Made by a program: the position numbers and the translations under genes. From a virus, in the IMG/VR virus record IMGVR_UViG_3300034198_013853, positions 1-37,146 of that record: DNA of 37,146 nt. One strand, 5' to 3'. This document shows positions 15,071 to 31,555 of this stretch, in pieces; position 1 is the stretch's first letter, and each line of letters starts with the position of its first letter. The notes under the pieces are model-generated. The model was given only the letters and a program-made list of their open reading frames with translations. It was not told where the DNA came from and ran no database searches.

Positions 15071-15071
15071 T

Positions 15072-17657
15072 ATGGGTTTATCTTATGGTACATATGATTG
15101 CGCGGCGAAAGATTGTATTTTATTATATGATTTTTTTTCTGCTGGATCTTATCAAGGTGAACCAACATCTAATTTATTTAAACAAGTAGCGGGAGCGACG
15201 ACTGGGTCTGGTGCTTATACCACTTCAACTATTCCTTGGTCTGGTGGTGGAACTTTTCTTTTTTTAAAATCTCAAAATTCTATTCCAATACCTGCTGGAT
15301 CAACTTCTTTTTCAGGATATTTAACATTTACTCAATTAAGCGGGACTGGTCCTGCTCCTTCCAATGGCTGGAAATCTATATATGTAAGCGGTAACAATAA
15401 CGATTACTATTTGCAAGCCCCCGCTGGCGTAAATAATAGTGCTGGAGTTTTTAATTATTTTTACGATGGATTCCAAGTCTCCCCAACTTCTACTGGAAGA
15501 GTTTTTTATAAATTAGATTATTCTAATAATTTAAATAATCAAGGAACTTTTAGTCAAAATGCTACCGGAAATTATTTTTTAACAGATTCAATTTATAAAT
15601 ATAATTATACAGGATCACAAACTGATGCCACTTCAAATAAGCATGGTTTTAATATAAATATAATAAGAGGAGAAACTTATACAGCATCAACTGAAATTTT
15701 TATTTCTCCCGATCACCCAAGAACAGGAAACATTCCTGTTTTAAGTTTTGTTCCAAACCTTTCAGGAACATTCGCGACATTAACTGGTAATTATGACTGT
15801 TCTAAAAAAGGAACTTGGCAGTCTATAAGCCAAAAAATATTTGTTCCAATTGTAGCAAATTCTCTTAGTTTAAATCCTGTTTATTATGACGTAACAGTAG
15901 ACACAAAAACAGCAAGCAGTCCATATTATAATTCAGGATCTCTTTTTAATTTTAAAATAGGATCTTTTGAAGGCAAAACTTTAAATTTATACAAAGGAGC
16001 AACTTATGTTTTTGTTCAATCAAATCAAAGTAATTCGCAAGATGAATTATATCTTAGTACCACAATAGATTCGGGAGGTGGAAATAACGCTTATAATAAT
16101 GGATTTTCTTATTTTGGAAATAAAGGATTTGACGGTTATGGAGTATTTAATGTTCCTTATAATGCTCCACCAATTTTATATTATAATTCTAGACAATCAA
16201 ATACTTCTTTTGTTGGAGGAAGAATAAATATTATTGGTGGGTATAACTCCGGAAACACTGGAAACGTAGGAAATGCTGGAAACACTGGCTCGACTGGAAA
16301 TGGTGGCAATGGAGGAAATACAGGTAATACTTCAAACACTGGAACGACTTCAACTTCAGAATTTTTTGCAATTTGTTTTGATCCTACTAGAAAAGAGTTT
16401 ACAGCTAGTAATTTAAATGGCGGTTACATTCTTTATAAGAACATGCAGTTCGAAAAGAATAAGCCAATGTTTAAAGGAGTAATTCATAAAACGCAATTTA
16501 CTTCTACGTCTAGATCAGATGTTTCAACGGTTTTAGATTTAACTGGAAATGAATATCATTCAAATCTTATAAATTCAAATTACGACAATAACGCTTATCT
16601 TTTTTTCTCTAAAAGAAATAATTTATTAGATGGTGGCTTTGTGGATATAAATTTAAAAGCAAATAAAGCCGCAACATTTTTAATTGGTAGTCAAAAAACT
16701 CAAACTTACGATTTTTGGTTCAAACAAACAGCAGCTTCAAATGGCAAAGCTTATTTATTTTCAAGATCTAGTGCTTTTTCTGGGGAGTTATTTTTAGAAA
16801 ATCAAGGCTATCTTCAATCTATATACATAGAAAATAAAAGGGTCTATTTTAGTTTTACTTCTCCAGACTCTAAAATATTTTCAGGTCATACAGATCAATT
16901 AATAGAAATAGGAGCATTATATAATGTTATTATTTCTATCAATTTAAATTCAATAGCTAACGATAAAGCAAAAATATATATAAATGGACAAGAGGTAAAC
17001 GTCCTTTTGCTTTCAATTATTTCTCCACCTACCATAACATCTATTCAAAGAGTTACTTCTGATGTTTCTAGAGCTGGAAATGTAGATTCTGGATTTAAAG
17101 GAGGCCAAAATTTATTCTACTGTGTTTCTTCTTACGATGCAAATGGCGAATCCGCGAAATCTCAAATTGTAGGGTCTCCTTCAGATGATATAAAAAATGC
17201 TGTAAGATTAAACTGGAACCAAGTAAAAGAGGCTAATGGATATTATATTTATAGATCTTACTCTTCGAATTTCGGGCCGTCTTCTTTACTTGCTACAATA
17301 AATAGTTATAAAATAAATTATTTTATAGATAATAATTATCAGACCCAAGCTGGCGCACCAAAAGCAACAGCTATTTCAAATTTACAATACGAGCCTAATA
17401 CCATAAATCTCGTTGATGATGCTACTGCTAAAGTTTGTTTCGGAGATTATCCGATAACCTCTAATGTTCCTAACTATTTTGAGGGATATATTTATAGAAT
17501 TGCTATTTATAAAACTAACATATCAGCTTTACAAGCTTCCAAAAATTTTAATTCTTTTTATTATAGATACGAGATGGAGGAGCCATCTTTAATAAAAAAT
17601 GCAATTAAACCAAGAACAGTAATTTATAAAAAGGTAGAAGATGGAATAAATAATTAG
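15072..17657 (+). CDS. Large adhesin/fibre protein with LamG-like and FN3-like domains
   Basis: An 861-residue virion adhesin. The first ~380 residues are beta-rich with aromatic and Gly/Ser-rich strands. Residues about 395-425 are a Gly-Asn-Thr low-complexity stretch (units such as GNTGNVGNAGNTG). Residues about 480-645 resemble a LamG/concanavalin-like jelly roll: LDLTGNEYHSNL, YDFWFKQTA, then AKIYINGQEV. A fibronectin III-like unit follows (about 655-760: FYCVSSYDANGES, VRLNWNQVKEANGYYIYRS). The last LamG-type strand, FEGYIYRIAIYKTNISALQ, appears only after it (about 800-820), so the FN3-like unit seems inserted in the LamG fold. Such domains bind carbohydrate or host surface. It begins one base after the preceding fibre gene. 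Confidence 0.7.
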   Translation: MGLSYGTYDCAAKDCILLYDFFSAGSYQGEPTSNLFKQVAGATTGSGAYTTSTIPWSGGGTFLFLKSQNSIPIPAGSTSFSGYLTFTQLSGTGPAPSNGWKSIYVSGNNNDYYLQAPAGVNNSAGVFNYFYDGFQVSPTSTGRVFYKLDYSNNLNNQGTFSQNATGNYFLTDSIYKYNYTGSQTDATSNKHGFNINIIRGETYTASTEIFISPDHPRTGNIPVLSFVPNLSGTFATLTGNYDCSKKGTWQSISQKIFVPIVANSLSLNPVYYDVTVDTKTASSPYYNSGSLFNFKIGSFEGKTLNLYKGATYVFVQSNQSNSQDELYLSTTIDSGGGNNAYNNGFSYFGNKGFDGYGVFNVPYNAPPILYYNSRQSNTSFVGGRINIIGGYNSGNTGNVGNAGNTGSTGNGGNGGNTGNTSNTGTTSTSEFFAICFDPTRKEFTASNLNGGYILYKNMQFEKNKPMFKGVIHKTQFTSTSRSDVSTVLDLTGNEYHSNLINSNYDNNAYLFFSKRNNLLDGGFVDINLKANKAATFLIGSQKTQTYDFWFKQTAASNGKAYLFSRSSAFSGELFLENQGYLQSIYIENKRVYFSFTSPDSKIFSGHTDQLIEIGALYNVIISINLNSIANDKAKIYINGQEVNVLLLSIISPPTITSIQRVTSDVSRAGNVDSGFKGGQNLFYCVSSYDANGESAKSQIVGSPSDDIKNAVRLNWNQVKEANGYYIYRSYSSNFGPSSLLATINSYKINYFIDNNYQTQAGAPKATAISNLQYEPNTINLVDDATAKVCFGDYPITSNVPNYFEGYIYRIAIYKTNISALQASKNFNSFYYRYEMEEPSLIKNAIKPRTVIYKKVEDGINN

Positions 17658-17672
17658 TGAAAATAATTGAGA

Positions 17673-17679
17673 GTGTAAA
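17673..17679 (+). promoter_or_regulatory. AGTGTAAA motif before the small fibre gene
   Basis: GTGTAAA preceded by A, 8 bases before the ATG at 17688, in a 30-base gap with no obvious ribosome site. Confidence 0.45.
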
Positions 17680-17687
17680 TAATTTAT

Positions 17688-18194
17688 ATGGCTATAACAA
17701 GATATGTAAGTGATAGATTTGTTTGTTTAGAAATAGAAAAAAGTGGATTGCTTCCTCAAGTAATGGATGGAGCAACTTGTTTTTGTTATGATTCTAAACA
17801 GAATTATTTTAAATATAATGGCTCTTGGATAAAGCCCACTACAAATGCTAATTCTATATCTACCCAATCAGTAGGTTTATCTTCTTCTCCGGGAACTGGA
17901 GTAACTTTAAATTTAGACTATGCTTCTACGCATATTCTTACATTAACTGGAAATGTTAGTGGTATAAAAATATTAAATCCATCCCAATCTCAACTTTGCG
18001 ATTTCACGCTTCAAGTAATACAGAGTGGGGCTTATTCACTTTTATGGTCTGGAACTTCATTTAAATGGCCAAGCGGACCAGCTTCGGCCCCGACGATAAC
18101 TAATGTCGCAGGCCGAACTGATTCGTTTAAGTTTTTAAGCACTAATGGTGGGACAAGTTATTTTGGATTTATTTTAGGCCAAAATTCTTATTAA
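17688..18194 (+). CDS. Small tail/fibre-type virion protein
   Basis: A 168-residue, beta-rich protein. The N-terminal part (about 1-50) has VSDRFVCLEIEKSGLLPQ and YDSKQNYFKYNGSW. The C-terminal part follows a pattern often seen at the ends of phage tail proteins: LTLTGNVSGIKILNP, a TLQVIQSGAYSLLW strand, then a WPSG turn and a final FKFLSTNGG strand. A tip or accessory fibre role is likely. It is the last forward gene before the reverse block; its stop codon overlaps the stop of the facing gene (18191-18194), and no terminator hairpin separates them. Confidence 0.6.
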   Translation: MAITRYVSDRFVCLEIEKSGLLPQVMDGATCFCYDSKQNYFKYNGSWIKPTTNANSISTQSVGLSSSPGTGVTLNLDYASTHILTLTGNVSGIKILNPSQSQLCDFTLQVIQSGAYSLLWSGTSFKWPSGPASAPTITNVAGRTDSFKFLSTNGGTSYFGFILGQNSY

Positions 18195-20692
18195 CCAGCA
18201 TTTTCTTTTCTTTCTTCTGGCTTGTAGTGAGACATTCTATTATGATTAATTGGACTAGCTAGTAGGACTGCTGATTTGATATTCTCCTTTATGGTTTCTT
18301 GAAATACATAGCTCATCCAAGTTTGTTCATAAGGAAATTGCCATTTAACATCAAGAAATACTTTTTTATTTCCTTGTTTATTCATTATCATTGGCCAATT
18401 GCCATAATATATATTTCCTTGTATATAAGATAGTTCTTTATATGTATTAATTTTTTCAAATTTTGTTCTAGGACAATTAAAGTCTAACCCACTGGTAGGT
18501 AACTTATCATATTCCGGCCAAAATTGAGTTCTTATTGATTGAGGCACGTTATACCAACTAACTTGTAAATTGTTATCCATGAACACTTCAGTAAAAGACA
18601 GTTTGACAAAATCAAACTCTTCTCTTGCCATTATATGGTGGATTTTATCATATAATTCAGGAACATATAACCTAAATCCATTCCTACAATATCCATTTTT
18701 ATCTGGAGTGTGCAATAACATATCGTCTTCAAAAAATAAATAATATTTAGCATCACTAGCGTCAAAATGTTCTGCGGCTAATTGTCTACCGCCACATATA
18801 CCAAGATTTTTGCCGGTAATTATATGCTCAAAATTATATTGCTTGCACAAAATTTCGTATTCTTTTATAACGCTTTCATTTGTAGAGTTATTAATTAAAA
18901 TTTTCCTTGGGCGATCTAACCATTCTGGAGTTTTTTCAAAAGACTCTATCAAAGTTTTAAATTGTTCTGGAAAATTAAAACCTAGAACATAAAGATTTGT
19001 TTTGTCTGTTGATTTACTATAAAATCCAAGCGGTTCGTTATACTTTGGTTTAGCTTTTTCTAATTCAACTTTATCTTCAGCAAGAGCTTGTATAAATTTT
19101 ACAATCAAACCATTATCATCCAAAGAGTATCTTCTATATGTAGAAGGTTTTAGGTGGGCCATGATAGAAAAAATGCTTTCTTCAGTACCCATCAAACCTT
19201 GAGACAAAGAATCATTTAATAAATGCCAATAATCTGCGTTAGCTTCTGATAAACAATCTTTATGGCCTCCAAATAAACCACCTCTGCAAACATATTTTAC
19301 TCTTTGCTTTGCATATTTATTTATAGCGTCAAATTTAAATCCATGTATTTCATTGTTCGCTTCGTATGGGAAACTTAGAAAAAGCATTGTTTCTAAGTAA
19401 GGATTTATTTTATCTAAAACTCTACATTCTGTAAAATATTTTTCATAAACAGTATTAGTTATGCCAGCGTCCAACCAAATGTAATAATCTGTATTAAATG
19501 GATTCATTACTTTCGCGTCATGCAGTAGCGACATTTTCGATTGAACAATAGGATTATACCATTCGCACTTTGCTTGAGGAGAGTCTGGAATCCAACCAGA
19601 TTGATTATACCAATCTGGATCTTTGCGAATTTTTTGAGTTGGCTCCCAGAAGTTGCCATAAAATTGCTTTAAATCTTCAAGCTCTAATATTTTTACAATA
19701 GTATTAGACCTAGATCTTCTGCTCCAAACGAACTCTTCCAAAGAAGATGGTATATATAAAAATAAATAAACTGGAGTTTCCAAAAATTTTGAAAACAATT
19801 CTAAATATTGATCAAATGATCTTCCCGGCCTGCCTATATCCCAAAGTCCTGTTACAACTGTTAAATTTTTATTTTTAATCTCGCTGTTTTCATTAGGCTT
19901 CTCTTCTTGCAGGCTATTTTTTCTTATGTCTGGCGGAGTAGATTTAATTTTAACTTGTTTCTTTTCATCGCTTAAAGTATGAAAAACTATATCCCATAAA
20001 TTTTTATCTACAGCATTTACGTTTTCCCCAACAAATTCATATATATAATTATTTATTTTTAATTTATTCAAAACGCCATCTCGTTCTTCTTCCGTAAGGT
20101 TTATCCATTCTAAATGGATAGCTTTTGGCCTAAATTTTGAAAAATCAAATTGTTGGAAAACAATAAAATCATGGCCTTCAGTATCGCAAATAAATAAATC
20201 TATTTTATTTAAATTATGCTTCTCTATAAGAGAATTTAAAGTTAAAGTTGGTATTTTTGCAGTTTTGCCATATTTTTCTTTAACTTCCTTATCTCTTTGG
20301 TAGTTTGAACCAAATCCATTTCTAGCTGGCAACGCGCAAGACATTCCTCTGTAACCAACGTGTAAATCATTTTGTTCAATATCTTTTTTGCTAATATATA
20401 GCATTTCTATTTCGCCATCTGACTCTGAAATGGCGCAATTTTCAAATAAATGATTTTTATCGTTTTTGCAATTTTCTTTTAAGTCTTCAAAATAATCAGG
20501 AATAGGTTCTACAAATAGACCTCCCCATTTATACTCTCTGATATAGCCACGCATATCATCGTATGTGTAGCCGTCGTTCGCGCCAATGTGTAGAATATTT
20601 ATTTCAATTTTATTTTTACCTAAAAAATGAAGTGTTTCATCTAATAAATCCATATGCACTGATTTTTTTTCTTGCCCTGTTTGGTTAGTCAT
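18191..20692 (-). CDS. Three-domain FkbM methyltransferase-HtrL/YibB-like-GT2-like glycosyltransferase
   Basis: An 833-residue multidomain enzyme. Residues about 14-245: FkbM-type SAM-dependent methyltransferase (ILHIGANDGYTYDDM as SAM-binding loop, FVEPIPDYFEDL, then IDLFICDTEGHDF and HLEWINLTEEE). A Lys/Glu/Asn linker follows. Residues about 277-540: HtrL/YibB-type glycosyltransferase-like domain (TVVTGLWDIGRPGRS, YYIWLDAG near 403-410, RGGLFGGHKD). Residues about 566-825: GT-A glycosyltransferase of GT2 type (GICGGRQLAAEHF, then FFEDDM near 653-658 as the metal site). No signal peptide or membrane segment is seen. It is the last gene of the reverse operon, 4 bases after the preceding gene. 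It probably adds and O-methylates sugars; acceptor unknown. Domain calls are from motifs, not a search. Confidence 0.78.
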   Translation of the reverse strand: MTNQTGQEKKSVHMDLLDETLHFLGKNKIEINILHIGANDGYTYDDMRGYIREYKWGGLFVEPIPDYFEDLKENCKNDKNHLFENCAISESDGEIEMLYISKKDIEQNDLHVGYRGMSCALPARNGFGSNYQRDKEVKEKYGKTAKIPTLTLNSLIEKHNLNKIDLFICDTEGHDFIVFQQFDFSKFRPKAIHLEWINLTEEERDGVLNKLKINNYIYEFVGENVNAVDKNLWDIVFHTLSDEKKQVKIKSTPPDIRKNSLQEEKPNENSEIKNKNLTVVTGLWDIGRPGRSFDQYLELFSKFLETPVYLFLYIPSSLEEFVWSRRSRSNTIVKILELEDLKQFYGNFWEPTQKIRKDPDWYNQSGWIPDSPQAKCEWYNPIVQSKMSLLHDAKVMNPFNTDYYIWLDAGITNTVYEKYFTECRVLDKINPYLETMLFLSFPYEANNEIHGFKFDAINKYAKQRVKYVCRGGLFGGHKDCLSEANADYWHLLNDSLSQGLMGTEESIFSIMAHLKPSTYRRYSLDDNGLIVKFIQALAEDKVELEKAKPKYNEPLGFYSKSTDKTNLYVLGFNFPEQFKTLIESFEKTPEWLDRPRKILINNSTNESVIKEYEILCKQYNFEHIITGKNLGICGGRQLAAEHFDASDAKYYLFFEDDMLLHTPDKNGYCRNGFRLYVPELYDKIHHIMAREEFDFVKLSFTEVFMDNNLQVSWYNVPQSIRTQFWPEYDKLPTSGLDFNCPRTKFEKINTYKELSYIQGNIYYGNWPMIMNKQGNKKVFLDVKWQFPYEQTWMSYVFQETIKENIKSAVLLASPINHNRMSHYKPEERKENAG

Positions 20693-20696
20693 ATAT

Positions 20697-21509
20697 TTAT
20701 TTTAAATAGCCTAAATTAAAGAATGTTGTTATGCCTCCGCCAGCGTCTTCTTGCCTGAATAAATTACATCCTTCCATCGTATGGTGATGCGTATGGCCTA
20801 AAACTGGAAAAGTTTCTACTCCGCCTTTATTACTCCATTGCTCTGTAGTAATTAGTCTTTCATCAAATTCATAAAATGTAACCATTTTCTTTATATTTCT
20901 TTTAGTTAAATAAGCTCCAATTGCAACGTCATCGTTCCATGACCCTAATTTAATAAAATCTTCAAAATCATCTCCAAAATATCTTCTTCTATAGGATATT
21001 GTTTTATAATGTTGAAGATAGTTAACGTAAACATTTTGGTAAATAGACACTACAAAGCAATTTCTTTGATCTTCGAATGGTTCTTTTCCATTTTCTAATT
21101 CTGCCCTAATTCCATCATAGCCAACTGCTGTATTTTCATATCTTGATTGATTTTTTATTTGTTCTTCTAACATTTTAGGATGATAAATTAAATCATCATC
21201 ACAAACAGTTATAATTGATTCTGGATCTGTTTCTCTTCTGATGGTATATAAAATTTTAGTTATTGGCCCACAATCTTCTGGAACTTCAATTAATTTTAAT
21301 TTAGGATTTAATTCTGATAAATCTTTTAGCCATTGAGGGATTTTATATTCTTCTCCTGTTCTTTTATTTCGTGGAGGAATATTAAAATGTATTTCGTATG
21401 GCTCATTGAATTTTTGATTTACTAAAGAATTAATGCATTTTTTAATTCCATATTCCCCTTCATCTTTTAATCTAGAAGGTATTGTAGTAAGGCTTATTAT
21501 ATTTTTCAT
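20697..21509 (-). CDS. GT-A-like glycosyltransferase with DDD motif (copy A)
   Basis: A 270-residue protein, clearly paralogous to its upstream neighbour. Both start with a short strand and ISL(T/S)T(I/V)P(S/K)R, have SLVNQK, a LxxxEDxGPITK(I/L) segment, then a hydrophobic strand ending in CDDD (here ITVCDDDLIYHP near 100-112), as in the metal/nucleotide-sugar site of GT-A enzymes. A His-rich segment (GHTHHHTMEG) lies near residue 240. It appears to be a complete minimal catalytic domain. Its start overlaps the upstream stop by 4 bases (ATGA). Donor and acceptor are unknown. Confidence 0.72.
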   Translation of the reverse strand: MKNIISLTTIPSRLKDEGEYGIKKCINSLVNQKFNEPYEIHFNIPPRNKRTGEEYKIPQWLKDLSELNPKLKLIEVPEDCGPITKILYTIRRETDPESIITVCDDDLIYHPKMLEEQIKNQSRYENTAVGYDGIRAELENGKEPFEDQRNCFVVSIYQNVYVNYLQHYKTISYRRRYFGDDFEDFIKLGSWNDDVAIGAYLTKRNIKKMVTFYEFDERLITTEQWSNKGGVETFPVLGHTHHHTMEGCNLFRQEDAGGGITTFFNLGYLK

Positions 21510-22351
21510 ACTGTGTATATTTGATGCGTCTTATGTATAAAATTTTCCCACTCCGGTTTATATCTTCCAAAATGATGACCAGCCATTCTTCTGAATTCAT
21601 CGAAACCGCAACTATCATAAGATAAGTGTTTATTTATTGGGAATGTCCAAGAAGGTCTTCCGTCATGATTTACTGGTGTGTAGTCTGTTTCTTTATCCCA
21701 ATTAACACACATGATTGGGATAGCTTTCTTTTTCATATAATACGCAATAAGAAAGTCATCATTATCGCAAAGAGATAAAAAATCTTTATCAAGAAAATCT
21801 TCACCAAAAAAACTTCTCTGATAACAAACTGAATGCCAATGCCCCGGAACTACTAATCTAAAATCTTCTTTGACTGGAAAATAAGTATGATAAGATGAAA
21901 GCATATATCCTTTAGTTCCATCTTCTTTAGTAGCTTCTACTTTAATAGCGGGAATATCTCCTCTAAAGCAAGTTATATACTGTTTATTGTATTTTTCTTG
22001 CATTTTCAATTGATAATCTAGCATTCCCTCATTATAAGCCTGATCATCATCGCATATCAATAAAACGTCTTCTGGATCTTTAGATATGTTAAAAGATCCA
22101 ATTATTTTTGTTATTGGGCCGTAATCTTCTGTTCTATTTATTATTAATTTGGGATTTTGTTTTTGAAAATTAAGTAAATTTTCGTGAATAACATACTCTT
22201 CTTTAGTAATGTTATATATATATGGAATATTTAAAATAATTTTATAATCAAGATCCGTTTTTTGATTAACAAGAGAAGTTAAATTTTGCTCAAAAGAATC
22301 CCAAAGCCCCATTCTTTTAGGGACTGTAGATAAAGAAATATATAAGCTCAT
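21506..22351 (-). CDS. GT-A-like glycosyltransferase with DDD motif (copy B)
   Basis: A 281-residue paralogue of the gene downstream. It shares YISLSTVPKR, SLVNQK, EDYGPITKIIGS and VLLICDDDQAYNEGM (metal site near residues 97-104), plus a W-(H)-SVCYQRSFFGEDF block matching SYRRRYFGDDF in the other copy and a late His pair (GHHFGRY). The two copies differ much outside these blocks, so they may act on successive linkages. It lies one base after the double methyltransferase gene and overlaps the next by 4 bases; translational coupling is likely. Confidence 0.7.
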   Translation of the reverse strand: MSLYISLSTVPKRMGLWDSFEQNLTSLVNQKTDLDYKIILNIPYIYNITKEEYVIHENLLNFQKQNPKLIINRTEDYGPITKIIGSFNISKDPEDVLLICDDDQAYNEGMLDYQLKMQEKYNKQYITCFRGDIPAIKVEATKEDGTKGYMLSSYHTYFPVKEDFRLVVPGHWHSVCYQRSFFGEDFLDKDFLSLCDNDDFLIAYYMKKKAIPIMCVNWDKETDYTPVNHDGRPSWTFPINKHLSYDSCGFDEFRRMAGHHFGRYKPEWENFIHKTHQIYTV

Positions 22352-22352
22352 A

Positions 22353-23930
22353 TTAGATATTAATGTCTTTTAAAAATTCTAAATTGTACTCTCCGACCGG
22401 CGGTCCTTGATTTTTTTTATCAAGATAAGGATCAGGGAAAGGCCTTTGATCTACACTGTATTCTTTTACTAGATTTTTATTTATAAAAGTAATCTCTAAG
22501 AAATGTGGAAGTATGTACGTTTTGTCTTTTTGTTTATATTCAAAATTTCCGCCGTAGTTATTTCCATGTACATGATTTATAAGAAAATACTCGTTGATTA
22601 ATTTAATAACTGAGAAAAATTTTTCTATGTTTTCAATATGTGTTAAATAATGAAATTCTATTATCATGCCAGTGACCATTTCAGAAAACTTTTTAAAATC
22701 TGTATTCAAAAAGAATTCATACTCTGCTCCTTCAGTATCTGCTTTAAAAAATATTTTATTTTTTATATTTTTTTGTTCAGCGTGGCTAAAGAAGTGATCT
22801 GTATCCTTTTCCTTTTTACCAGATAAACCTTGCTTATTGAAAGATAAAAGCCCTTTTACATTTTCTGGTATATTAAATAATTCTTCTATAGTATGATCAA
22901 AGCAATAAGCTATCTTATCTGTACAATTTACAAAATCCCTCTCGAATGCAGTATCGGTCCCAATCCCATATGAAAATAAGCAATCGCTTTTAGCTAATAA
23001 AGACACTGGAATAACATAACCTCCGTCCCAATCATTTCCAAGTCTTACTTTTGGTTGTTTAACATCATAAATTTTTAAATTATCTATCAAATATTTATTC
23101 TCGGTAGCGATTTGGTTAATAGACACTTGGACTGGCGCAGTTTCATTGGAAGGAATGGGTGGCGAAAGATTGCTGCTAATTGAAACATTCACTTCTGTTT
23201 CTAAATATTTGGAAATTTCATTTTCTTTATCTTTTCCTATTTTTAAAAATACATTTTGTCTTCCAGTCAATAATTTTATATATCCATTTTCTAAAAGATA
23301 TGGAGTTAATAGCTTATCTTTTCCTCCTTCAGCCGAATCGAAATCAGTATCGTCTATTGCTACTATATGAGTTTGTGCTAATTTATCTTTAGCGGCCATG
23401 TACGCGGCTAAATGTTTTTCAGCGTATTCATGAGTGCCAATATCCCACCCATCTAAATATAGAAAATCTATTTCTTTAAGAAAATTTTCCAAGAAACCAA
23501 TTCCATCTTGAGGAATGTGTATATGCAAATTATCTGGTATTGGCTCTTTAACATGATACTTATATTGATTTATTAGCATTTTCAAACAATGCTCATCTAT
23601 ATCTACAGTGTATACATGGAGACCAGATTTAGCCCAAAAATAAGTGGAATGACCATCTTGACAACATGGTGGAGCATCTGCTGGTTTTAGTTTGTAGCAA
23701 TTATTGTAGTAATCTATGCAGTTTTGAGTTACTTCCATTCTAGTTGAGCCAATTTCAACCATTGTTTTTGCTCCCATTATTTTTAAAAGCTCAATCGTTT
23801 TTCTTATCCATGGGGCGGGATAATTTCTAAGAGAATTCTCTTCTGGCGAAAGTGGGCTGTGATCCCAATATAATGTGTTTACTTTAAAATCACTGCTCTT
23901 TTTAAGAAGTTGAACCTTGATGGTGTCCAT
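22353..23930 (-). CDS. Two-domain methyltransferase
   Basis: A 525-residue protein with two different SAM-methyltransferase-like halves. Residues about 45-235: class I fold with TMVEIGSTR as glycine loop (shortened), VYTVDIDEH as the acidic strand-2 end, IDFLYLDGWDIG and IVAIDDTDFD as strands 4 and 5. Residues about 270-485: FkbM-like half with KVRLGNDWDGGYVIP, LFSYGIGTDTAFERDF, IFFKADTEGAEYEFF and MIIEFHYLTH. The Asp-Thr-Glu-Gly-Ala-Glu block is typical of FkbM-type sugar O-methyltransferases. A Ser/Pro-rich linker joins the halves. No membrane segment. Likely caps or decorates glycans made by the adjoining enzymes; one half may be inactive. Confidence 0.72.
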   Translation of the reverse strand: MDTIKVQLLKKSSDFKVNTLYWDHSPLSPEENSLRNYPAPWIRKTIELLKIMGAKTMVEIGSTRMEVTQNCIDYYNNCYKLKPADAPPCCQDGHSTYFWAKSGLHVYTVDIDEHCLKMLINQYKYHVKEPIPDNLHIHIPQDGIGFLENFLKEIDFLYLDGWDIGTHEYAEKHLAAYMAAKDKLAQTHIVAIDDTDFDSAEGGKDKLLTPYLLENGYIKLLTGRQNVFLKIGKDKENEISKYLETEVNVSISSNLSPPIPSNETAPVQVSINQIATENKYLIDNLKIYDVKQPKVRLGNDWDGGYVIPVSLLAKSDCLFSYGIGTDTAFERDFVNCTDKIAYCFDHTIEELFNIPENVKGLLSFNKQGLSGKKEKDTDHFFSHAEQKNIKNKIFFKADTEGAEYEFFLNTDFKKFSEMVTGMIIEFHYLTHIENIEKFFSVIKLINEYFLINHVHGNNYGGNFEYKQKDKTYILPHFLEITFINKNLVKEYSVDQRPFPDPYLDKKNQGPPVGEYNLEFLKDINI

Positions 23931-23975
23931 ATTTTATTGTAATTTTTAGAATTTAAAATTCTATATTTTTTTAAT

Positions 23976-24905
23976 TTATTTTAGTAGTTTGTTTATATCT
24001 ACGGTTTGAAAAAGTATTTGCGCATTTTTTTCGCTAGTACCATTGTTTAAATACCATTCCCTAGCGTTTTTAGATATAAAATTTAAATATTCTTTGTCGT
24101 TTTTTATTTTATTGTATTTATCTAAAAAAGCATCTGCTAATTTTTCATAATTTGAAAAATCATCTATTTCGACGGATGAGTAATGATATTCTGGAATAAG
24201 AGGATCTTTAAATTGTACTCTATGCTTTGTGCGAAGCATTACATTCCCTAATCCTAATATTCCAATTTCTCTATAAGAAATTTCCCCTTTAGCGTTTGGA
24301 GCTATATTTATAAAATCCTCATTTAATTCTTCGCAATATTCTTTTTGATGCAGCCTTTCATATCTAGCGTCTATATAATTAAATCTTTTTTCTTTTAATA
24401 AATATTCTCTGAATACATAAGGAAAAGCTCTGATTCTTGGTTTTTCTGGAATTTTTTTTATTATTTGTTTTTGAAAATTTTCCTCTACATATTGATCCCA
24501 CGCTGGAGTTTCGTGGCAATAAGATATTGGAGTATATTTTATTGGAGGATCGCATAGGTCGTAAGTAATGTCGCTTTCACCATGTATTCCTATGCTTGTA
24601 TACAGCTCTAATAAATTTGGAACATCGAACCCAGATTCTTTTTCAAAAATATTTCTTGCTTTATCCCAATATGATATAAGCAAAAATTTTTTTGTCATTG
24701 GGTTTTCTATTCTCATGAAATGGCTTCCATAAATAGTATTTGGGCCAAGGTAGTTTTCAGGAGTTCTTAACGATCTGCTATCTATATAATTAAAATTTAT
24801 ATTTTTTCTAGCGTTTTTAATTAACTCGAAAAACCTTTCGTATATAAAAAGCGGATTGCTAAGGCATGGATTTGATTTTTCAAAATAAATATTTAATTCT
24901 ATCAT
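23976..24905 (-). CDS. GT-B-like glycosyltransferase, paralogue 1
   Basis: A 309-residue protein, the most divergent of three tandem paralogues. The shared C-terminal core holds INIAPNAKGEISYREIGILGLGNVMLR (about 197-223), then DPLIPEYHYSSVEIDDFSNYEKLADAFLDKY and a final REWYLNNGT block. This arrangement, a small-residue loop, Arg-x-x-(E/G)-I-x-x-(L/G)-G and a conserved acidic/aromatic patch, resembles the donor-binding domain of CgeB-type or group-1 GT-B glycosyltransferases. Its start overlaps the upstream stop (ATGA). It is followed by a 45-base gap with a small hairpin before the methyltransferase gene. Confidence 0.6.
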   Translation of the reverse strand: MIELNIYFEKSNPCLSNPLFIYERFFELIKNARKNINFNYIDSRSLRTPENYLGPNTIYGSHFMRIENPMTKKFLLISYWDKARNIFEKESGFDVPNLLELYTSIGIHGESDITYDLCDPPIKYTPISYCHETPAWDQYVEENFQKQIIKKIPEKPRIRAFPYVFREYLLKEKRFNYIDARYERLHQKEYCEELNEDFINIAPNAKGEISYREIGILGLGNVMLRTKHRVQFKDPLIPEYHYSSVEIDDFSNYEKLADAFLDKYNKIKNDKEYLNFISKNAREWYLNNGTSEKNAQILFQTVDINKLLK

Positions 24906-25906
24906 ATCAATTTATTTAAATCGATTAGTTCATTAACAAAGACAGAAGAGGCTTTTTCTCTAGGAACATTTTCTTCATACCATTTTCTACCATTTTCAGC
25001 AATAAAATTTAAGAAATCTGGATTTGATTTTATATATTCATATTTTTCTAAAAAAGCATCACTAATTTTATCTATGTCTGAATGGTCGTAAATGTTTATG
25101 GCTGCATAATGATAATCAGGAATCAGAGGATTGTGAAACGCTGAGCAGTTTAACAGGCATCTTAAATTAACTGATCCCAATCCCATGATTTCAAAATCTC
25201 TTCCCGATATTTCGGCAGCACTGTTTAAACTTAAATTCACTTTATATTTATCAAGTTCTCTGAGAAAGCTTTCGTTGGTGTGAAGTCCATATCCATTTTT
25301 ATCTATAATATCTAATTTACCATTATCTTTTAAAATAAGCCTAACTCCATATAAATACCCTATGAATCTTGGTTTTTCTGAAAAAATTCTTGTGTTTTTT
25401 TCTTTGTAAATTTTATCTATCAAATTCTCTTGATCAGGATAATCTAAATAACTTCCTAATGCTGGCGTTACTTTAGTATCGCATCTTTCAAATTTGAGAT
25501 ATGTATTTTTTCTTGATACTCCTCCTATAGATGTGAGTATCTCGACACAATTTTCCATATCCCAATTTGCTACATGACAGTGAAAATCTTCTATATAATC
25601 CATCATCGTAAGGGCTATATATTTTTTATTTTCTGCGTTTTCTATTACTACGCTTAAAACACCATATTTTGAATTTGATCCATAGTGTACGCCTCCATTA
25701 GTAAGGCTAGCGTATTTTTCTTTGTCTGCCACAATCATTCCGGTGTGAAATGCACAAAATTCTACGTCTGGATATTTTATTTTTAATTTTCTATAAATTC
25801 TAAACCATAAATCAGACATTCCCCAATGTCCGCCAAAGAATTCTTCGTAAGGATGTTCGTCTGGATTTTTTGCACAAGTCCAATCAAAATAAAAATTTAT
25901 TTTCAT
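24902..25906 (-). CDS. GT-B-like glycosyltransferase, paralogue 2
   Basis: A 334-residue member of the tandem trio. It starts MKINFYFDWTC, nearly identical to its upstream neighbour's start, and shares VNLSLNSAAEISGRDFEIMG followed by LGSVNLRC, then NPLIPDYHYAAINIYDH and the terminal ENGRKWYEEN block. The central part has a KYIALTMMDYIEDFH strand that aligns with KYFILAACDKLLDLQ in paralogue 3. The arrangement looks like a GT-B enzyme with donor-site signature in the C-terminal half. No membrane segment or signal peptide. Its start overlaps the stop of the gene upstream by 4 bases. Confidence 0.62.
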   Translation of the reverse strand: MKINFYFDWTCAKNPDEHPYEEFFGGHWGMSDLWFRIYRKLKIKYPDVEFCAFHTGMIVADKEKYASLTNGGVHYGSNSKYGVLSVVIENAENKKYIALTMMDYIEDFHCHVANWDMENCVEILTSIGGVSRKNTYLKFERCDTKVTPALGSYLDYPDQENLIDKIYKEKNTRIFSEKPRFIGYLYGVRLILKDNGKLDIIDKNGYGLHTNESFLRELDKYKVNLSLNSAAEISGRDFEIMGLGSVNLRCLLNCSAFHNPLIPDYHYAAINIYDHSDIDKISDAFLEKYEYIKSNPDFLNFIAENGRKWYEENVPREKASSVFVNELIDLNKLI

Positions 25907-26889
25907 ATAAGTTTAGAAAAATTCACAATTTCAATCAATGTATCAGAGGCCGATTCAGTGCTACAGTTTTTTTCGTACCAAAGTCTAGCGTTGTTTCCAA
26001 TGAATTCTACCAAGTCTGGATTTTTCTTTAAGTATTCATACTTTTCTAGAAACATCTCTTTTATTTGTGGATCTGCGTGATCCCAAAATTTTACAGCAGC
26101 ATAATGATAATCTGGTATTAAAGGATCGTGGGTTTTGCAATGCTTAAGCTCACATCTTAAAGCTACTGATCCAACCCCAAATATCTCAACATCTCTGCAA
26201 GAATATTCTCCCGCTGCGTTTAGACTTAAATTTACTTTGTATTTATTTAAATCATAAATAAAATCTTCCATGGAGTGCAGATTCCCTTGAGATTTATCTA
26301 TGGCTTCAAATCTTGGATCTTCATTAAAAATAATTCTTGGAACATAAATTGTACCAACAAATTTTAATTTATCTGGAAAAATTCTTTGCGTTTTTTGTTT
26401 GTATATTTTTTCTATGATGTCAGCTTTTGATAGATAATCTACATGAAAAAAAGTTGGGGTATATTCAAAATTCAATTTAGCAGGAGTGTATCTTAGGTCT
26501 TCAAGATGACCACCTTGGCAAGCGAAGACTTCTGCGCAATTTTCTAAATCCCAATTGTTCGCACCTGATTGTAAATCTAATAATTTATCACAAGCTGCTA
26601 GTATAAAATATTTTTTATTTTCTACATTTTCTATCAAGCATGTGCCTATAGAATATTTAGCGTTTCCACTGTCATGCCTTCCGCCTTTTGTCATAGAACT
26701 ATATAGTTCTTTATTATCCATTATTAATTGACTATCTATTGCGTTGAAAGAAATGTCTGGATATTTTTTCTGACATTTCTTATAAAATTTAAACCATACA
26801 TCAGCGTGAGCCCATTCGCTGAATCTTTGATCAACGTCAACCTCGTATGGATTTCTGCTAAGCCAACAAAAATAAAAATTAATTTTCAT
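25903..26889 (-). CDS. GT-B-like glycosyltransferase, paralogue 3
   Basis: A 328-residue paralogue, closest to the 334-residue protein next to it. Shared blocks: MKINFYFCW, VWFKFYKKCQKKYPDISF, NLSLNAAGEYSCRDVEIFG with GSVALRCE following, and DPLIPDYHYAAVKFWDH. It follows the tandem GlcNAc-transferase-like gene, overlapping its stop by 4 bases. Three adjacent copies with full-length cores suggest gene duplication followed by specialisation for different sugars or positions, instead of decay; all frames are intact. Confidence 0.62.
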   Translation of the reverse strand: MKINFYFCWLSRNPYEVDVDQRFSEWAHADVWFKFYKKCQKKYPDISFNAIDSQLIMDNKELYSSMTKGGRHDSGNAKYSIGTCLIENVENKKYFILAACDKLLDLQSGANNWDLENCAEVFACQGGHLEDLRYTPAKLNFEYTPTFFHVDYLSKADIIEKIYKQKTQRIFPDKLKFVGTIYVPRIIFNEDPRFEAIDKSQGNLHSMEDFIYDLNKYKVNLSLNAAGEYSCRDVEIFGVGSVALRCELKHCKTHDPLIPDYHYAAVKFWDHADPQIKEMFLEKYEYLKKNPDLVEFIGNNARLWYEKNCSTESASDTLIEIVNFSKLI

Positions 26890-29492
26890 AAAATTTTCTC
26901 TACACGTTCAGCCCAACCTCTGACTGGGCTATGCCCCCAAAACACCATTCTTCTTGGCTTTATTTTTGATACGAAAATTTCTTCGAAATGAATGGTTGCT
27001 TTTCCGCTTATAAAAGCTTGGAGTTCTTCGCCTTCAACATAATGATGAGATATTCCTTGACCATTTTCATCATCAAAAGCTATTAAGATTTTATCATAAT
27101 CATTAGCTGGTAAATGTTCTTTAGTTACATCTACTAAATAATAGTAAGAGGGGATCAAAGATGCTTTCCATTCAGCCTCTGTCATTATTGGGTTGGGAGG
27201 GAATTTATGATCTACAGTATATTGCTGAACAGATTTATCTTTAAAACAAACCCCAGCGTATCTTTCATATTCATGCAAAGTTCTTTCTCCTCCTAGATCA
27301 TAGCCAGTCAAATCAAAACCGTTATCTTCTGTCCTTAATAATTGTCTGATTTTAGCCCTCGCTTCATGTTGTGCTGTATACCAGTCTTCGCCTCTCTTGA
27401 ATTGATCGTCCCATAAAAGCATTCCATTTCTTTCCTCTCTCATTGTGCTATGCCAAATTACAATTTTATGAGGATGATAAATATCATAACCATGAGTAAA
27501 AGATCTAACAGTTAAGTTAAGCTCTTCTCCGCTAAAATAAATATCAGTATCATGTTTAATTATTTTACCCCAATGATTATCTCCAAAAGAAAAATGGCCA
27601 GATAAAAATCTAGCAGGTATTGGCTCAGTTAAGTCTTGCGAATTTTGAAGTCCCATTGGTCTAATAAATATAGTACCAAATGGATAAAAACAACCAAAAA
27701 TAGTTTGCCATGGATCTTTACATCTTCCTTCAGGGTCGTTGAAAGGACTATAATGAGGGCAGTATCCAGCTAGAAGTGGCTTTTTAACGCCTTTCTTTTT
27801 CAAGCCGTCGTGCATTGAAATCAATGTCTCGTCCCAATGTTTTGTAAATCTATGGTGACTATCTAGTTGTAGTACATACTCTTCTTCTTCTAGCATTGTG
27901 TTAATCTGATATCTGGCAAAAGCCAATCCCTTAGCTTTAGTATAGTCCATATCAATAATTTTAAATCTTGGATCAGATCTATATTTATCGACGTTATCAA
28001 ATTTATCTTCTGGATTAAATTGCCTACAAATTCCAAATACTAGTCTATTTGGATTTTTTGCTTGATTCATGGCGTCTTCTATGGTCGGAATAAGCTCTGG
28101 ATCTCTATAGGCTGGCAAATGAACTAGGATTTTTCTTTCATTTGGATTTTTATTAAATTTAAATTTATATTTCTTTTTGCCAAAATCTTTCCATAGGCTT
28201 TCTGGATCAGGTGTTCTTGACTTTCTGATTTTGGGTGATGGGATATCTCTTTCGATCTTATCTAACCATCCTTTAGATTTGCTGCGGGGCCAAAGTAAAT
28301 AGCTATATGGTAGATCAGTATATGCAAATTCTCTCCATATTCTGTACCATCCATCAGGGGCTAAATTAGCTTTAAATTCTTTTATTTCTTCTTCGCCTAC
28401 ATCTGCCCTACATATTTCTTCGCCTTTGGAATTCTTAAAGGCTATAACCCATAAATCATAATCTTCTTCAGGCATGATTTTGGAATCTAAATCTATACAA
28501 AATCTAAATTGTTTAAGCCAATTGGCCTCCCAATCTTCTTGAGATTTAAATGGAGGCGGACCTAACTTTAATTCGTAAGTGTGTTTTTGCACTCTTCTGT
28601 TTTTGAAGTCTATTCCAGCATATCTTTCGTATTGTTCGATAGTTCTAGCTTTACCTAAGCCATATTTAGAAAATGGATTGTCATTTTTTTCGCCGTCTAT
28701 TCCAAGCAATTTTCTATTTTTATTATGACTTAAAATATCTTTATCAAGCCAAGTGAGGTCGTCATCCCATTGTCTTTTCTTTTTTAGTCTGCCATACTCA
28801 TGCCATATAAGAACTTTATGTAAATGAAACAAATCGTATCCCCAAGTATAAGCTCTAACAGCAATAGATATTTCTTCTCCTAGAAAATAAAATTCTGGAT
28901 CGTGAGGGACTTCTTCCACAAAAGATCCATCAGCAAAAGCAAAATGTGCGCCATAGAATCTAGCTGGCACTGGTTCTTTATAATTTTCTGCATTATCTAA
29001 AGTCGAAGGTTTTAAGAAAATTGAACCTTCTGGTAAGAATCTATCAAAATCAAGCTTCCAAGGCTCCATACACCTTTCCGCTGGATCATTTTCTGGATTG
29101 TAAGATGGAATATAACCAGTTAGTAAAGGTTTTTTTACTCCCTTTTTCTTTAATCCTTCCAGCATTGAAATTAATTCTGCGTCCCAGTTTTGAACAAATC
29201 TATGATGGCTGTCTAGTTGGAGAGTATATTTTTCATTGTCATATTGTTTCTGAAGAAGATTTCTAGCCCAACAAGCCCCTTTACTGTCTTTGTAATTATA
29301 ATCAATAATTTTAAATCTTTTATCGTTAGCGAATTCTTCAAGACTATCATTTTCATCATGTTGCCAACATAAAGAAAATACCAAGTTTTCTGGATTTTTA
29401 GCTTTTGATATGCAATCTCTTAGTGTTTTTAAAAGTTCAGGATCTCGATACGCTGCAATCTGGACAAATATCTTATTACCTTTTTTACTCAT
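26886..29492 (-). CDS. Tandem-duplicated GlcNAc-transferase-like glycosyltransferase
   Basis: An 868-residue protein made of two homologous halves (about 5-415 and 452-868). Each half has a start of type KI(F/L)VxxxAYRDPEL, a (W)ARxxx core, LQLDSHHRF (DSHHRF at 94-99 and 544-549) in place of a DxD metal site, KKKGVKKPLL(T/A)GY, PARFxxxHF(A/S)F, a GEE motif (FLGEEISIAVR and FSGEELNLTVR) and HxHK(V/I)xIWH near the end of the catalytic core. These are hallmarks of the family of Skp1-type GlcNAc transferases (Pfam GlcNAc, PF11397), known from eukaryotes and some bacteria and viruses. Both halves keep the key residues, so both may be active. First gene of the reverse operon, with its own promoter. 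Confidence 0.8.
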   Translation of the reverse strand: MSKKGNKIFVQIAAYRDPELLKTLRDCISKAKNPENLVFSLCWQHDENDSLEEFANDKRFKIIDYNYKDSKGACWARNLLQKQYDNEKYTLQLDSHHRFVQNWDAELISMLEGLKKKGVKKPLLTGYIPSYNPENDPAERCMEPWKLDFDRFLPEGSIFLKPSTLDNAENYKEPVPARFYGAHFAFADGSFVEEVPHDPEFYFLGEEISIAVRAYTWGYDLFHLHKVLIWHEYGRLKKKRQWDDDLTWLDKDILSHNKNRKLLGIDGEKNDNPFSKYGLGKARTIEQYERYAGIDFKNRRVQKHTYELKLGPPPFKSQEDWEANWLKQFRFCIDLDSKIMPEEDYDLWVIAFKNSKGEEICRADVGEEEIKEFKANLAPDGWYRIWREFAYTDLPYSYLLWPRSKSKGWLDKIERDIPSPKIRKSRTPDPESLWKDFGKKKYKFKFNKNPNERKILVHLPAYRDPELIPTIEDAMNQAKNPNRLVFGICRQFNPEDKFDNVDKYRSDPRFKIIDMDYTKAKGLAFARYQINTMLEEEEYVLQLDSHHRFTKHWDETLISMHDGLKKKGVKKPLLAGYCPHYSPFNDPEGRCKDPWQTIFGCFYPFGTIFIRPMGLQNSQDLTEPIPARFLSGHFSFGDNHWGKIIKHDTDIYFSGEELNLTVRSFTHGYDIYHPHKIVIWHSTMREERNGMLLWDDQFKRGEDWYTAQHEARAKIRQLLRTEDNGFDLTGYDLGGERTLHEYERYAGVCFKDKSVQQYTVDHKFPPNPIMTEAEWKASLIPSYYYLVDVTKEHLPANDYDKILIAFDDENGQGISHHYVEGEELQAFISGKATIHFEEIFVSKIKPRRMVFWGHSPVRGWAERVEKIL

Positions 29493-29506
29493 ATAAAACT
29501 TTTTTT

Positions 29507-29535
29507 ATTATATAAAAACTTAATGGATTAGTCTA
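29507..29535 (-). promoter_or_regulatory. Promoter of the reverse-strand glycosylation block
   Basis: On the reverse strand TAGACT (29535-29530) is followed after 17 bases by a perfect TATAAT (29512-29507). The ATG at 29492 lies 14 bases beyond, giving a leader of about 8 bases without a clear ribosome site. Confidence 0.6.
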
Positions 29536-29558
29536 TTTTTAATTAGAAAATAAGAACT

Positions 29559-29577
29559 TTACACTTAAAAAGTGTAA
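29559..29577. promoter_or_regulatory. Palindrome TTACACTT-AAA-AAGTGTAA in a divergent promoter region
   Basis: A perfect 8-bp inverted repeat with a 3-base centre presents the AAGTGTAA motif on both strands between the divergent glycosylation and connector operons. There is no T tract on either side, so it is not a terminator. It is either two back-to-back late promoter elements or an operator. The forward copy lies 7 bases before the ATG at 29586. Confidence 0.6.
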
Positions 29578-29585
29578 TGTTCATT

Positions 29586-30029
29586 ATGGCGTCACTTATA
29601 AGTAATTCAGATAGAGAACAGTTCGAGGGGGCTATGGATAGCTTATTCGATACGTTCAAAAGAAATGTTGTTATTTATAAAGACGCTCAAATTTCAATTA
29701 TTGACATAAATCAACCTAGGATGTTTGGCTATAATGAAAGGGTTGATATCTCTAATATTAATTATACTCCAATAACTGGAGTTTTTCCGGCTTTGATTTC
29801 TTACGAAATGAATCAAAATACCCAAAGAAATGAAGACGTTGGCAATCCCATAGAAAAGGGAACCGCATTTATAAAAGTCAAATCTGACGCTAACGATTTT
29901 ATTCAAAACAATGGTAGAACTTTAAATATCTTAATAGATGATTTGATGTTTAAATTTGTAAGCACTGAATCTGTAAGAAGATTTTTAACTTCTAATTTAT
30001 ATGGATATCATTTAGAAAGGGAAAGATAA
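29586..30029 (+). CDS. Head-tail connector candidate
   Basis: A 147-residue protein. I take the ATG at 29586 (Met-Ala-Ser-Leu-Ile) as start because the ATG at 29577 lies inside the AGTGTAAT motif; the earlier one would add three residues. The sequence has a helical N-terminus (REQFEGAMDSLFDTFKRNVVIY) and a beta-rich middle (GTAFIKVKSDANDFI). It is the first gene of a module that leads to the major tail protein, so an adaptor or head-completion role is likely. It shares one base with the next gene (TAATG). No definite family is recognised. Confidence 0.6.
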   Translation: MASLISNSDREQFEGAMDSLFDTFKRNVVIYKDAQISIIDINQPRMFGYNERVDISNINYTPITGVFPALISYEMNQNTQRNEDVGNPIEKGTAFIKVKSDANDFIQNNGRTLNILIDDLMFKFVSTESVRRFLTSNLYGYHLERER

Positions 30030-30685
30030 TGGAGATCTCAAGCATAAGAATAGATGGAGATTTAATTGAGGAGGCTTTGTCTGATAGGCTCTTAAAGAAT
30101 GAAATAGAAGAATTAGTAATGGAAGCTTTTGAAGATAAAAAGCAACAACTTATAGAAAATTTTCTAGATCATCCAGTTTCTCAAGAAATATCTAATCCAG
30201 AAGAAGGTAATATATCTGGAACGCTAGGAGGTTATGGAGATCTCTTTGGCTTTATTGGTTTTTTTGAAGGATCAGAACCAATAGAAAGTGTGCAAGAAGC
30301 GTTATCGGCTTTTGTAAATTATAAATCTATATCTATAGAAAAATCTTACAATAGAGACGCAAGGGGGAGATTTACCTTTGGAAGAATAAAGAAAGTGTCT
30401 TTAGTTTACTCAATTCCTACTCTTGACGATTTTAACGCGGCTTCAGAAAATGATGTTGGATGGGATATGCCAAGAAATTGGGTAAAAGGAATTGAAAAAG
30501 GAATCTCTGGGCTTGGAAGATACGCAGATTACGAAGGCAGAGGGAGATCTGGAAGGGGTGTGCAGCTAAGAGGCACCATAAAAGAACCTTCTGTAGATAG
30601 GGGGCAATTTCTTAGATCTTTTAGACCAGTTCCTTATATGACTTCTTTGATGAAAGGATTCTCGAAATCTTTAGAAAACTTATGA
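30029..30685 (+). CDS. Neck/tail-completion candidate
   Basis: A 218-residue protein of unknown family. It has a helical acidic N-terminus (about 10-50), a Gly-rich segment SGTLGGYGDLFGFIGFFEG (about 66-84) and a basic Gly/Arg-rich region near 170-185. Minor tail or tail-completion proteins often carry a similar (L/F)FGFIGF strand after a Gly-rich turn. It overlaps both neighbours (TAATG at its start, ATGA at its end), which indicates tight co-expression with the connector and tail genes. Confidence 0.55.
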   Translation: MEISSIRIDGDLIEEALSDRLLKNEIEELVMEAFEDKKQQLIENFLDHPVSQEISNPEEGNISGTLGGYGDLFGFIGFFEGSEPIESVQEALSAFVNYKSISIEKSYNRDARGRFTFGRIKKVSLVYSIPTLDDFNAASENDVGWDMPRNWVKGIEKGISGLGRYADYEGRGRSGRGVQLRGTIKEPSVDRGQFLRSFRPVPYMTSLMKGFSKSLENL

Positions 30686-31527
30686 AAGTAAATTATCAAA
30701 ATACTCTTACTAGCAGCTTTTTATTATATATAGATAATGCAGTACTAAAAAAGGGAGATGCTTATACTAACGTAAATAGTTTGTTTTATCCTATAAGTGG
30801 TGTATATGGCAATTACTTCACATACGCCGCTCCATACAAGCAAATAGTTAGCGATGTTTCGATAAATGGAGCTACGCAAATGAGCGGAGTTTATTTGAAT
30901 GGAAATTTTATAACTCCCGGTCAATCTGGGCTTTTAGCAATAAATCATTATGATGGCCAATTAATATTTTCATCAAATAAAAATGGTCAGGCTATAAGTG
31001 GTAATTATTCTATAAAAGATTACAATGTTTATTTGACCGATAAATCTGAAGATTATATATTATTTTCAACTAAAATAGAACCTAAAAGCAGAAGAAATAT
31101 TACAGCAAGAGGGTTAGAAGTGAACGAAATCACTTACCCAGCTATATTTTTGATGATGATCAATTCTCAAAATGAACCGTTTGCTTTTGGCGGAACAGAT
31201 ATGACAAAGAGCTATTTTAGAACTGTCGTCATGGCTAATTCTGTATTTTCCTTAGATGCTGTTTGTGGTATATTAAGAGATTCTGCTCACAACTACTTTA
31301 GGTTGGTAGATAATAATGATCTAAAACTTAACGCCATGAGTGCTTATACTGGCACTCCATTTAATTATACTGGAGTAGCTACTGGTGAACCAGTCTATAT
31401 AGCTGATGTTAATGTTTCTAGGGTAAAAAAGATAACTTCTAGTGAGTATGTAAATTTAAATCCAGATGTTTATTCTGCATTTATAGATTTTGATTTGGAA
31501 TCTGTTCGCAACACTCACGCTTATTAA
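30682..31527 (+). CDS. Hypothetical tail-region structural protein
   Basis: A 281-residue protein, Tyr/Asn/Ser-rich and mostly beta-strand, with no family I recognise. Notable segments: YKQIVSDVSINGATQMSGVYLNG (residues about 53-75, split by turns) and EVNEITYPAIFLMMINSQNEPFAFGGTD (about 148-175). It overlaps the preceding gene by 4 bases and precedes the major tail protein with a 64-base gap. A neck, terminator or baseplate role is suggested by position only. Confidence 0.55.
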   Translation: MKVNYQNTLTSSFLLYIDNAVLKKGDAYTNVNSLFYPISGVYGNYFTYAAPYKQIVSDVSINGATQMSGVYLNGNFITPGQSGLLAINHYDGQLIFSSNKNGQAISGNYSIKDYNVYLTDKSEDYILFSTKIEPKSRRNITARGLEVNEITYPAIFLMMINSQNEPFAFGGTDMTKSYFRTVVMANSVFSLDAVCGILRDSAHNYFRLVDNNDLKLNAMSAYTGTPFNYTGVATGEPVYIADVNVSRVKKITSSEYVNLNPDVYSAFIDFDLESVRNTHAY

Positions 31528-31555
31528 AAAAATAATTCCAAATAAAAATTTTTGA

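Follow-up and report, generated by a model that had tools for sequence, protein, structure and literature searches.

The window analysed here (the whole stretch of DNA) is a 37,146-base linear record of an uncultured water phage, IMGVR_UViG_3300034198_013853 in IMG/VR. The plus strand carries its virion module, with genes for terminase, portal, protease, capsid and fibres, connector-position genes, a tube-position gene and the tape measure. Pfam or PHROG matches support only the terminase, the tape measure and part of the fibres; the remaining virion labels come from position and relatives. This module is interrupted by eight minus-strand open reading frames (ORFs) at 18191-29492, a cassette of glycosyltransferase (GT) and methyltransferase genes that is the subject of this work. 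A first-pass annotation, made from the sequence alone, had drawn the block with these borders and eight reverse-strand genes, and the ORFs match it exactly. The genes are named C1 to C8 from left to right, C8 being the first of the putative operon.

C8 (26886-29492; 868 residues) encodes tandem PF11397 (GlcNAc) glycosyltransferases. The Pfam match is strong (E 4e-125, 418 bits versus a cut-off of 21), as is that to phrog_24687 (4e-257). A family hidden Markov model (HMM) built in this analysis matches both halves (residues 2-418 and 449-867), and the motif QLDSHHRF is present in each. C1 (18191-20692; 833 residues) comprises an FkbM methyltransferase at residues 35-212 (PF05050; 71.9 bits versus the Pfam cut-off of 22.7, E 9e-20), an HtrL_YibB domain at 276-~523 (PF09612; 37.8 bits versus 24.1, E 2e-9) and a GT-A-like C-terminal glycosyltransferase at ~560-833. 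Its residues 275-833 (HMM span) form one half of a conserved core pair, of which C8 is the other.

The genes between these two are more varied. C2 (20697-21509; 270 residues) is GT2-like, with a CDDD motif and a match to PF00535 (Glycos_transf_2; E 4e-8), and C3 (21506-22351; 281 residues) is its divergent GT2-like paralogue (34% identity; Pfam E 0.047, below the cut-off). C4 (22353-23930; 525 residues; phrog_24975, 5.6e-13) has an N-terminal region (~55-230) that would be an S-adenosylmethionine (SAM) methyltransferase-like domain, judged from motifs. Its C-terminal region (~320-430) scores under the PF05050 cut-off (E 0.0035, 17.9 bits) and is for that reason called only FkbM-like. C5 (23976-24905; 309 residues), C6 (24902-25906; 334 residues) and C7 (25903-26889; 328 residues, 45% identical to C6) align as mutual paralogues of a GT-B family for which there is no Pfam model and no convincing Pfam match; the HMM that scores C5 at 1.6e-88 was built with the C5 sequence included. 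Neither C2 nor C6 has an INPHARED match. The count of catalytic GT and methyltransferase domains is 12, lower than the at least 14 domain units given in the first-pass annotation.

The fold of C6 was modelled with AlphaFold2 on a 42-sequence alignment gathered from related loci (predicted local distance difference test, pLDDT, 90.2), which replaced an earlier three-sequence model (pLDDT 37). The best Foldseek matches in the PDB are POGLUT1, POGLUT2, EXT1/2, PBCV-1 A075L and SdgB, several of which are protein glycosyltransferases. POGLUT1 aligns with E 1.8e-6, a template-modelling (TM) score of 0.48 and 14% identity (a GT90/POGLUT-type comparison), and A075L (GT114) with E 2.3e-5 and a TM-score to the query of only 0.32-0.34. 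A075L, a xylosyltransferase of the chlorovirus capsid glycan, has a GT-B fold and a catalytic Asp, and its leaving group is stabilised by two Arg (PMC11571054). Two invariant arginines of the C5-C7 family, R189 and R236, show a spacing much like that of Arg158 and Arg208 in A075L, a comparison by spacing. In the model, C6 folds as a GT-B glycosyltransferase like POGLUT1 and A075L. Sequence searches of the PDB with alignments A4, A7 and A8 gave no usable match, and the C5-C7 family no significant one; matches to MAD2B (E 0.15 or worse) were dismissed as chance.

The genes are tightly packed. The description of the junctions as mostly 4-base overlaps holds for four of the seven; at the remaining junctions the genes stand 1, 4 and 45 bases apart. 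C1, the last gene, and the fibre gene fib3 converge with a 4-base overlap. At the other border C8 and the connector-position gene con1 diverge from an 84-bp gap (29493-29576) that contains a weak promoter-like match (29535-29507, TAGACT-17-TATAAT, 10/12); promoter and terminator scans showed no excess over shuffled sequences. The sole other substantial, non-nested minus-strand gene of the window lies at 2173-2544, in keeping with the one small gene noted earlier on that strand. As had also been observed, the block is without transmembrane-like stretches (maximum 19-residue hydropathy 1.18), and the ORF list and Pfam reveal no flippase, polymerase, ABC export or nucleotide-sugar gene within it. 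All eight ORFs are intact and soluble by hydropathy, and the family of each is also represented in other phage contigs, which places the block far beyond chance. Its codon usage resembles that of the phage virion genes (r 0.97) and gives no support to a recent import from a host. An assembly chimera is judged unlikely from the clean borders, the phage-like codon usage and the origin of the fib3 and con1 sides in one phage lineage; no second contig with identical junctions was found.

A conserved core pair in phages and bacteria

Single-sequence scans were weak (C8 led to two loci only, and C7 to no viral relative), and alignment profiles were used instead. These detect relatives of C8 in at least 585 viral stretches and of C1 in at least 562, and both occur together in 135 of the 160 best viral loci. 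Among 112 representative viral loci (below 80% mutual identity) both core genes are present in 92, in every case on the same strand and 1-8 genes apart, with the C8-type gene first, as in the window, in 74 of them. The particular forms seen in the window are rare: the FkbM fusion of C1 is found in 8 of 100, and the tandem C8 in 1 of 148 ORFs. In three contigs of Myxococcales metagenome-assembled genomes, the C8-type and C1-type enzymes are fused into one protein of 1,080-1,210 residues (L282:17-3649, L330:3652-6897 and L333:2756-6019). Fusion as a single polypeptide, a classical sign, suggests that the two act jointly. The genes enclosed by other cassettes are mostly GT2, FkbM, GT25, CmcI-type methyltransferase, carbamoyltransferase and GT34. 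No flippase, polymerase or acyltransferase is among the 25 families most often seen in 150 inner proteins from the 92 cassettes.

The core recurs beside virion genes in unrelated phages. A T4-like phage contig (L098, with the near-identical L099), unrelated to the window and carrying T4-type sheath, terminase, portal and capsid genes, encodes 60% identical orthologues of the tandem C8 and of C1 residues 276-833 (HtrL_YibB, 57 bits); there the core genes have a mucin-like protein with (PSVTPSIT)n repeats on one side and an FG-GAP protein on the other. Three isolated phages, the jumbo phage XacN1 and the Stenotrophomonas phages RAS14 and CM1, also encode homologues of both core genes (identity ~37-40% for the PF11397 GT and ~40-41% for the YibB-GT). 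In XacN1 these are ORF334 (C8) and ORF330 (C1), the latter annotated merely as hypothetical; the cluster adjoins a 3,313-residue protein and a baseplate wedge, next to giant baseplate/tail genes, and the layout in RAS14 is similar. At least two glycoproteins are reported from proteomics of XacN1 virions, and its authors proposed phage-encoded GTs, the C8 homologue ORF334 among them. The GTs named in that paper are ORF328 and ORF334 alone, and the cassette is not described there (PMC5852040).

Bacterial homologues of the PF11397 GT have as their commonest neighbours type VI secretion system (T6SS), Rhs and fimbrial families, with no polysaccharide-assembly family among the commonest. A C8 relative is present in 68 bacterial loci, 21 of which also encode TssF, and the gene order in T6SS loci is TssF-TssG-TssA-(fimbrial-adhesin-like)-PF11397 GT. 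Such clusters are seen in Yersinia, Serratia, Siccibacter, Paraburkholderia and a Neisseriaceae strain; TssF-bearing examples among L271-L350 are L344:4828-14130, L306:4859-9974 and L278:4632-12229, the last with a C1-type GT half following the PF11397 GT. The T6SS-linked enzyme possibly glycosylates a T6SS or adhesin protein, or is itself an effector. Because these settings recur, homologues of the block are not always found with host polysaccharide clusters, though single cases such as a Jiulongibacter locus (L274) adjoin genes of uridine diphosphate (UDP)-sugar type.

Insertion site and candidate acceptors

The fibre genes to the left of the cassette, fib1-fib3 (14282-15070, 15072-17657 and 17688-18194, plus strand, together 14282-18194), form a cluster with matches to tail-fibre PHROGs. 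To its right lie con1-con3 and the tube-position genes (29577-32728, plus strand), whose synteny extends to L081 and L082 and to more distant relatives. The first-pass placement between fibre and connector genes is exact in position; the word connector rests on position and synteny, as the genes at 29577-31527 have no PHROG match.

The relatives found show no cassette. One scan of virus contigs returned 440 capsid relatives. The closest relative spanning the site is a 174.5-kb contig (L003 and L081) with a 91% identical major capsid protein, in which con1 follows ~40 bp past the end of the fib3-position gene; the 88.7-kb L082 has the same right side. Profiles for C8, the C1 GT, the GT-B family and C2/C3 match nowhere in the 174.5-kb contig, nor in 97 capsid- or tail-anchored loci and 18 further tail loci, which are partial genomes. 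The comparison of presence and absence that had been advised thus finds the block missing at this site in all spanning relatives found. At this position in this phage lineage the cassette is an insertion.

In relatives the gene after the fib3 anchor is usually a long fibre, often of low complexity, within which the contigs end; 21 of 25 fib3 anchors are open, and 12 have at least 70% Ser/Thr/Gly in 80 residues. Very long (GSSGTSG)n or (STGSIG)n repeat genes follow the anchor in the close relatives L001, L003, L013, L021, L034, L039 and L081. Because contigs break at these repeats, the remainder of these phages is hidden in metagenomes. In more distant relatives (L083-L097, L366, L371, L376) con2-con3-tube are inverted within the virion module, lying on the strand opposite to that of the capsid and the tape measure.

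The adjoining fibres are plausible acceptors, with Ser+Thr contents over 80 residues of 31-35% in fib1-fib3 and 39% in a further candidate, fib0 (7398-8291), giving a range of 31-39%. Across the viral loci, 15% of the ORFs within two genes of a cassette are Ser/Thr-rich or collagen-like, versus 4% farther off (Fisher 5e-10), and 36 of the 92 loci have such a neighbour versus 22 expected by random placement (0 of 5000 placements as high); these p-values are optimistic, because the loci are still related and the two kinds of gene may only share structural regions. Mucin-like repeats of the neighbours include PTPTQTPT and PSVTPSIT, and phrog_15511 ranks second in frequency among the families flanking cassettes. 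Two members of this family, L108:5932-7893 (XacN1 ORF350) and L113:8316-9923, are Thr/Pro-rich mucin-like repeat proteins and candidate acceptors. DNA polymerase and NAD synthetase families are also among the flanking genes, so that the flanks are partly non-structural.

Elsewhere in the window, positions 1-500 hold an 18-bp repeat (4.8 perfect copies at the start) followed by GC-rich sequence unlike the remainder, possibly an assembly or contig-end artefact. An outer-membrane-protein-like gene at 672-1400, where the virion module borders on other sequence, appears to encode a secreted product with a signal-peptide-like start and has no Pfam match. The capsid gene (12706-13833) deviates in codon usage (GC 0.43; r 0.54 versus pooled virion genes), perhaps reflecting high expression. 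Neither of two routes pointed to a host: the capsid has no INPHARED relative and the window no transfer RNA gene.

Function of the cassette

The recurrence of the core pair beside virion genes in many unrelated phages argues that the block most likely sugar-coats the phage's own virion proteins. We put the probability that it is a mobile, phage-encoded protein-glycosylation cassette acting on virion proteins at about 0.72. The first-pass annotation had already proposed a cytosolic system of this kind, and the proposal gains from the core beside structural genes, the XacN1 glycoproteins, the likeness of C6 to A075L and the bacterial homologues, which recur in T6SS clusters and not in O-antigen loci. 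Its choice of the adjacent Ser/Thr/Gly-rich fibres as acceptor fares less well: relatives with far richer fibres show no cassette, and the fibres remain candidates.

We envisage that the genes, expressed as one operon, would yield soluble enzymes in the cytoplasm during infection. With nucleotide sugars drawn from the pool of the host, these would assemble a branched O-glycan step by step on at least one virion protein, either ahead of particle assembly or in its course. The core enzymes would be C8 and the C-terminal part of C1, and the variable middle genes (C5-C7 of GT-B type, C2/C3 of GT-A type) would lengthen the glycan or add branches. Methylation by the three methyltransferase domains (the FkbM of C1 and two in C4) may then cap it. 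The acceptor would most likely be a fibre or other surface protein, and the benefit could be shielding, protease stability or altered adsorption.

A different target, the host surface, is improbable in our estimate and is the best of the alternatives. On that account the cassette would remodel lipopolysaccharide (LPS), capsule or S-layer glycan against superinfection or against sticking of virions to debris. LPS and lipooligosaccharide (LOS) loci commonly contain FkbM, GT2 and HtrL_YibB domains, and a few cassettes hold a pyruvyltransferase gene. Three observations count both for that account and against the preferred one: the L274 locus lies near genes of UDP-sugar type, as read from sequence; a few cassettes elsewhere hold genes for GDP-mannose dehydratase (GMD) or an epimerase; and the HtrL/YibB name occurs in a paper on the outer-core LOS locus of Acinetobacter baumannii (PMC4172580). 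Action on virion proteins is further weakened by the modest TM-scores of the C6 fold matches (at most 0.48) and by the representative loci, which are still related, so that Ser/Thr-rich genes and cassettes may co-localise merely through shared structural regions. Moreover, no cassette is seen in close relatives whose fibres are giant Ser/Thr/Gly-repeat proteins, which indicates that such fibres do not need it. Against remodelling of the host surface stand the lack of membrane segments in the block, its place between virion genes, the missing flippase, polymerase and acyltransferase among the commonest families inside the 92 cassettes, and the T6SS and fimbrial contexts of the bacterial PF11397 homologues.

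It is much less probable that the cassette glycosylates and methylates hypermodified phage DNA against host nucleases. Its methyltransferases are of FkbM type, a family whose known members O-methylate sugars, and the likeness of C6 is to GTs of proteins and glycans. No hydroxymethylase, TET/JBP or 5-hydroxymethyldeoxyuridine (5-hmdU) kinase was recognised in the window, a 37-kb fragment, the genomes of relatives not being searched. DNA-decorating phage GTs are nonetheless well known, and are cited beside virion glycosylation in a paper on moraphages (PMC12619734). Least probable of all is a passive passenger (moron) from other phages, accidentally placed and without virion role, for although the block is missing at the site in all spanning relatives found and the spot after fib3 is variable, its ORFs are intact, both C8 copies keep the core motifs, its codon usage is phage-like and the same core adjoins virion genes in unrelated phages.

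Beyond glycosylation of virion proteins in this phage, a wider proposal is offered tentatively, and we think it somewhat more likely to be wrong than right: a widespread, horizontally moving "phage mucin" system, in which a PF11397 GT and YibB-GT pair, with swappable GTs, methyltransferases and carbamoyltransferases lying between the two or alongside, would glycosylate Ser/Thr-rich surface repeat proteins across unrelated phages, with a relative serving the phage-tail-like T6SS. Few systems with glycosylated phage particles are known, and searches for phage glycoproteins are accordingly rare. Since the two-gene marker recurs in hundreds of viral contigs and in three or more isolated phages, it becomes testable which phages, and which protein, are involved, and it opens the question of whether a sugar coat alters adsorption, stability or immune clearance. 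The link of PF11397 to T6SS clusters also hints at glycosylated contractile injection machines.

Comparison with known systems

A limited open-access literature search, which covered mucin-like phage proteins and phage YibB, found no prior description of the C8 and C1 core or of its breadth. These would be what is new here, in a variant of the already known phage-encoded glycosylation of virions. XacN1 (the ORF334/ORF330 region), RAS14 and CM1 share with the window both core homologues in one cluster beside tail/baseplate genes; they differ in being unrelated jumbo myophages with a single PF11397 domain and a carbamoyltransferase in place of C5-C7, C2-C3 and C4. In the mycobacteriophages Che8, Corndog and Myrna (Freeman et al. 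2023), phage GTs modify capsid and tail-tube proteins. Compared by description only, the reported enzymes are single essential GTs of actinobacteriophages, and a PF11397 and YibB core is not described in two papers that cite the work (PMC12363180, PMC12619734). Moraphages, a large aquatic lineage likened here by description only, have four core orthologous groups that are putative GTs (PMC12619734). Bacterial flagellin-glycosylation islands and LPS/LOS loci use the same families (FkbM, GT2, YibB), but are host loci without linked virion genes.

The chlorovirus PBCV-1 (A064R, A061L, A075L, A071R, A111/114R) resembles the window in its virus-encoded, mostly soluble cytosolic GTs and in proteins that combine GT and methyltransferase domains; A064R unites two GTs and a methyltransferase (PMC9614988). 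A terminal sugar of its glycan is methylated, and its GT-B enzyme A075L resembles C6 in predicted fold. Unlike the window, PBCV-1 is a eukaryotic virus, and its glycan is N-linked to the major capsid protein. If our interpretation is correct, the cassette would be the bacterial-virus parallel to the virus-encoded, methyl-capped glycans of chloroviruses.

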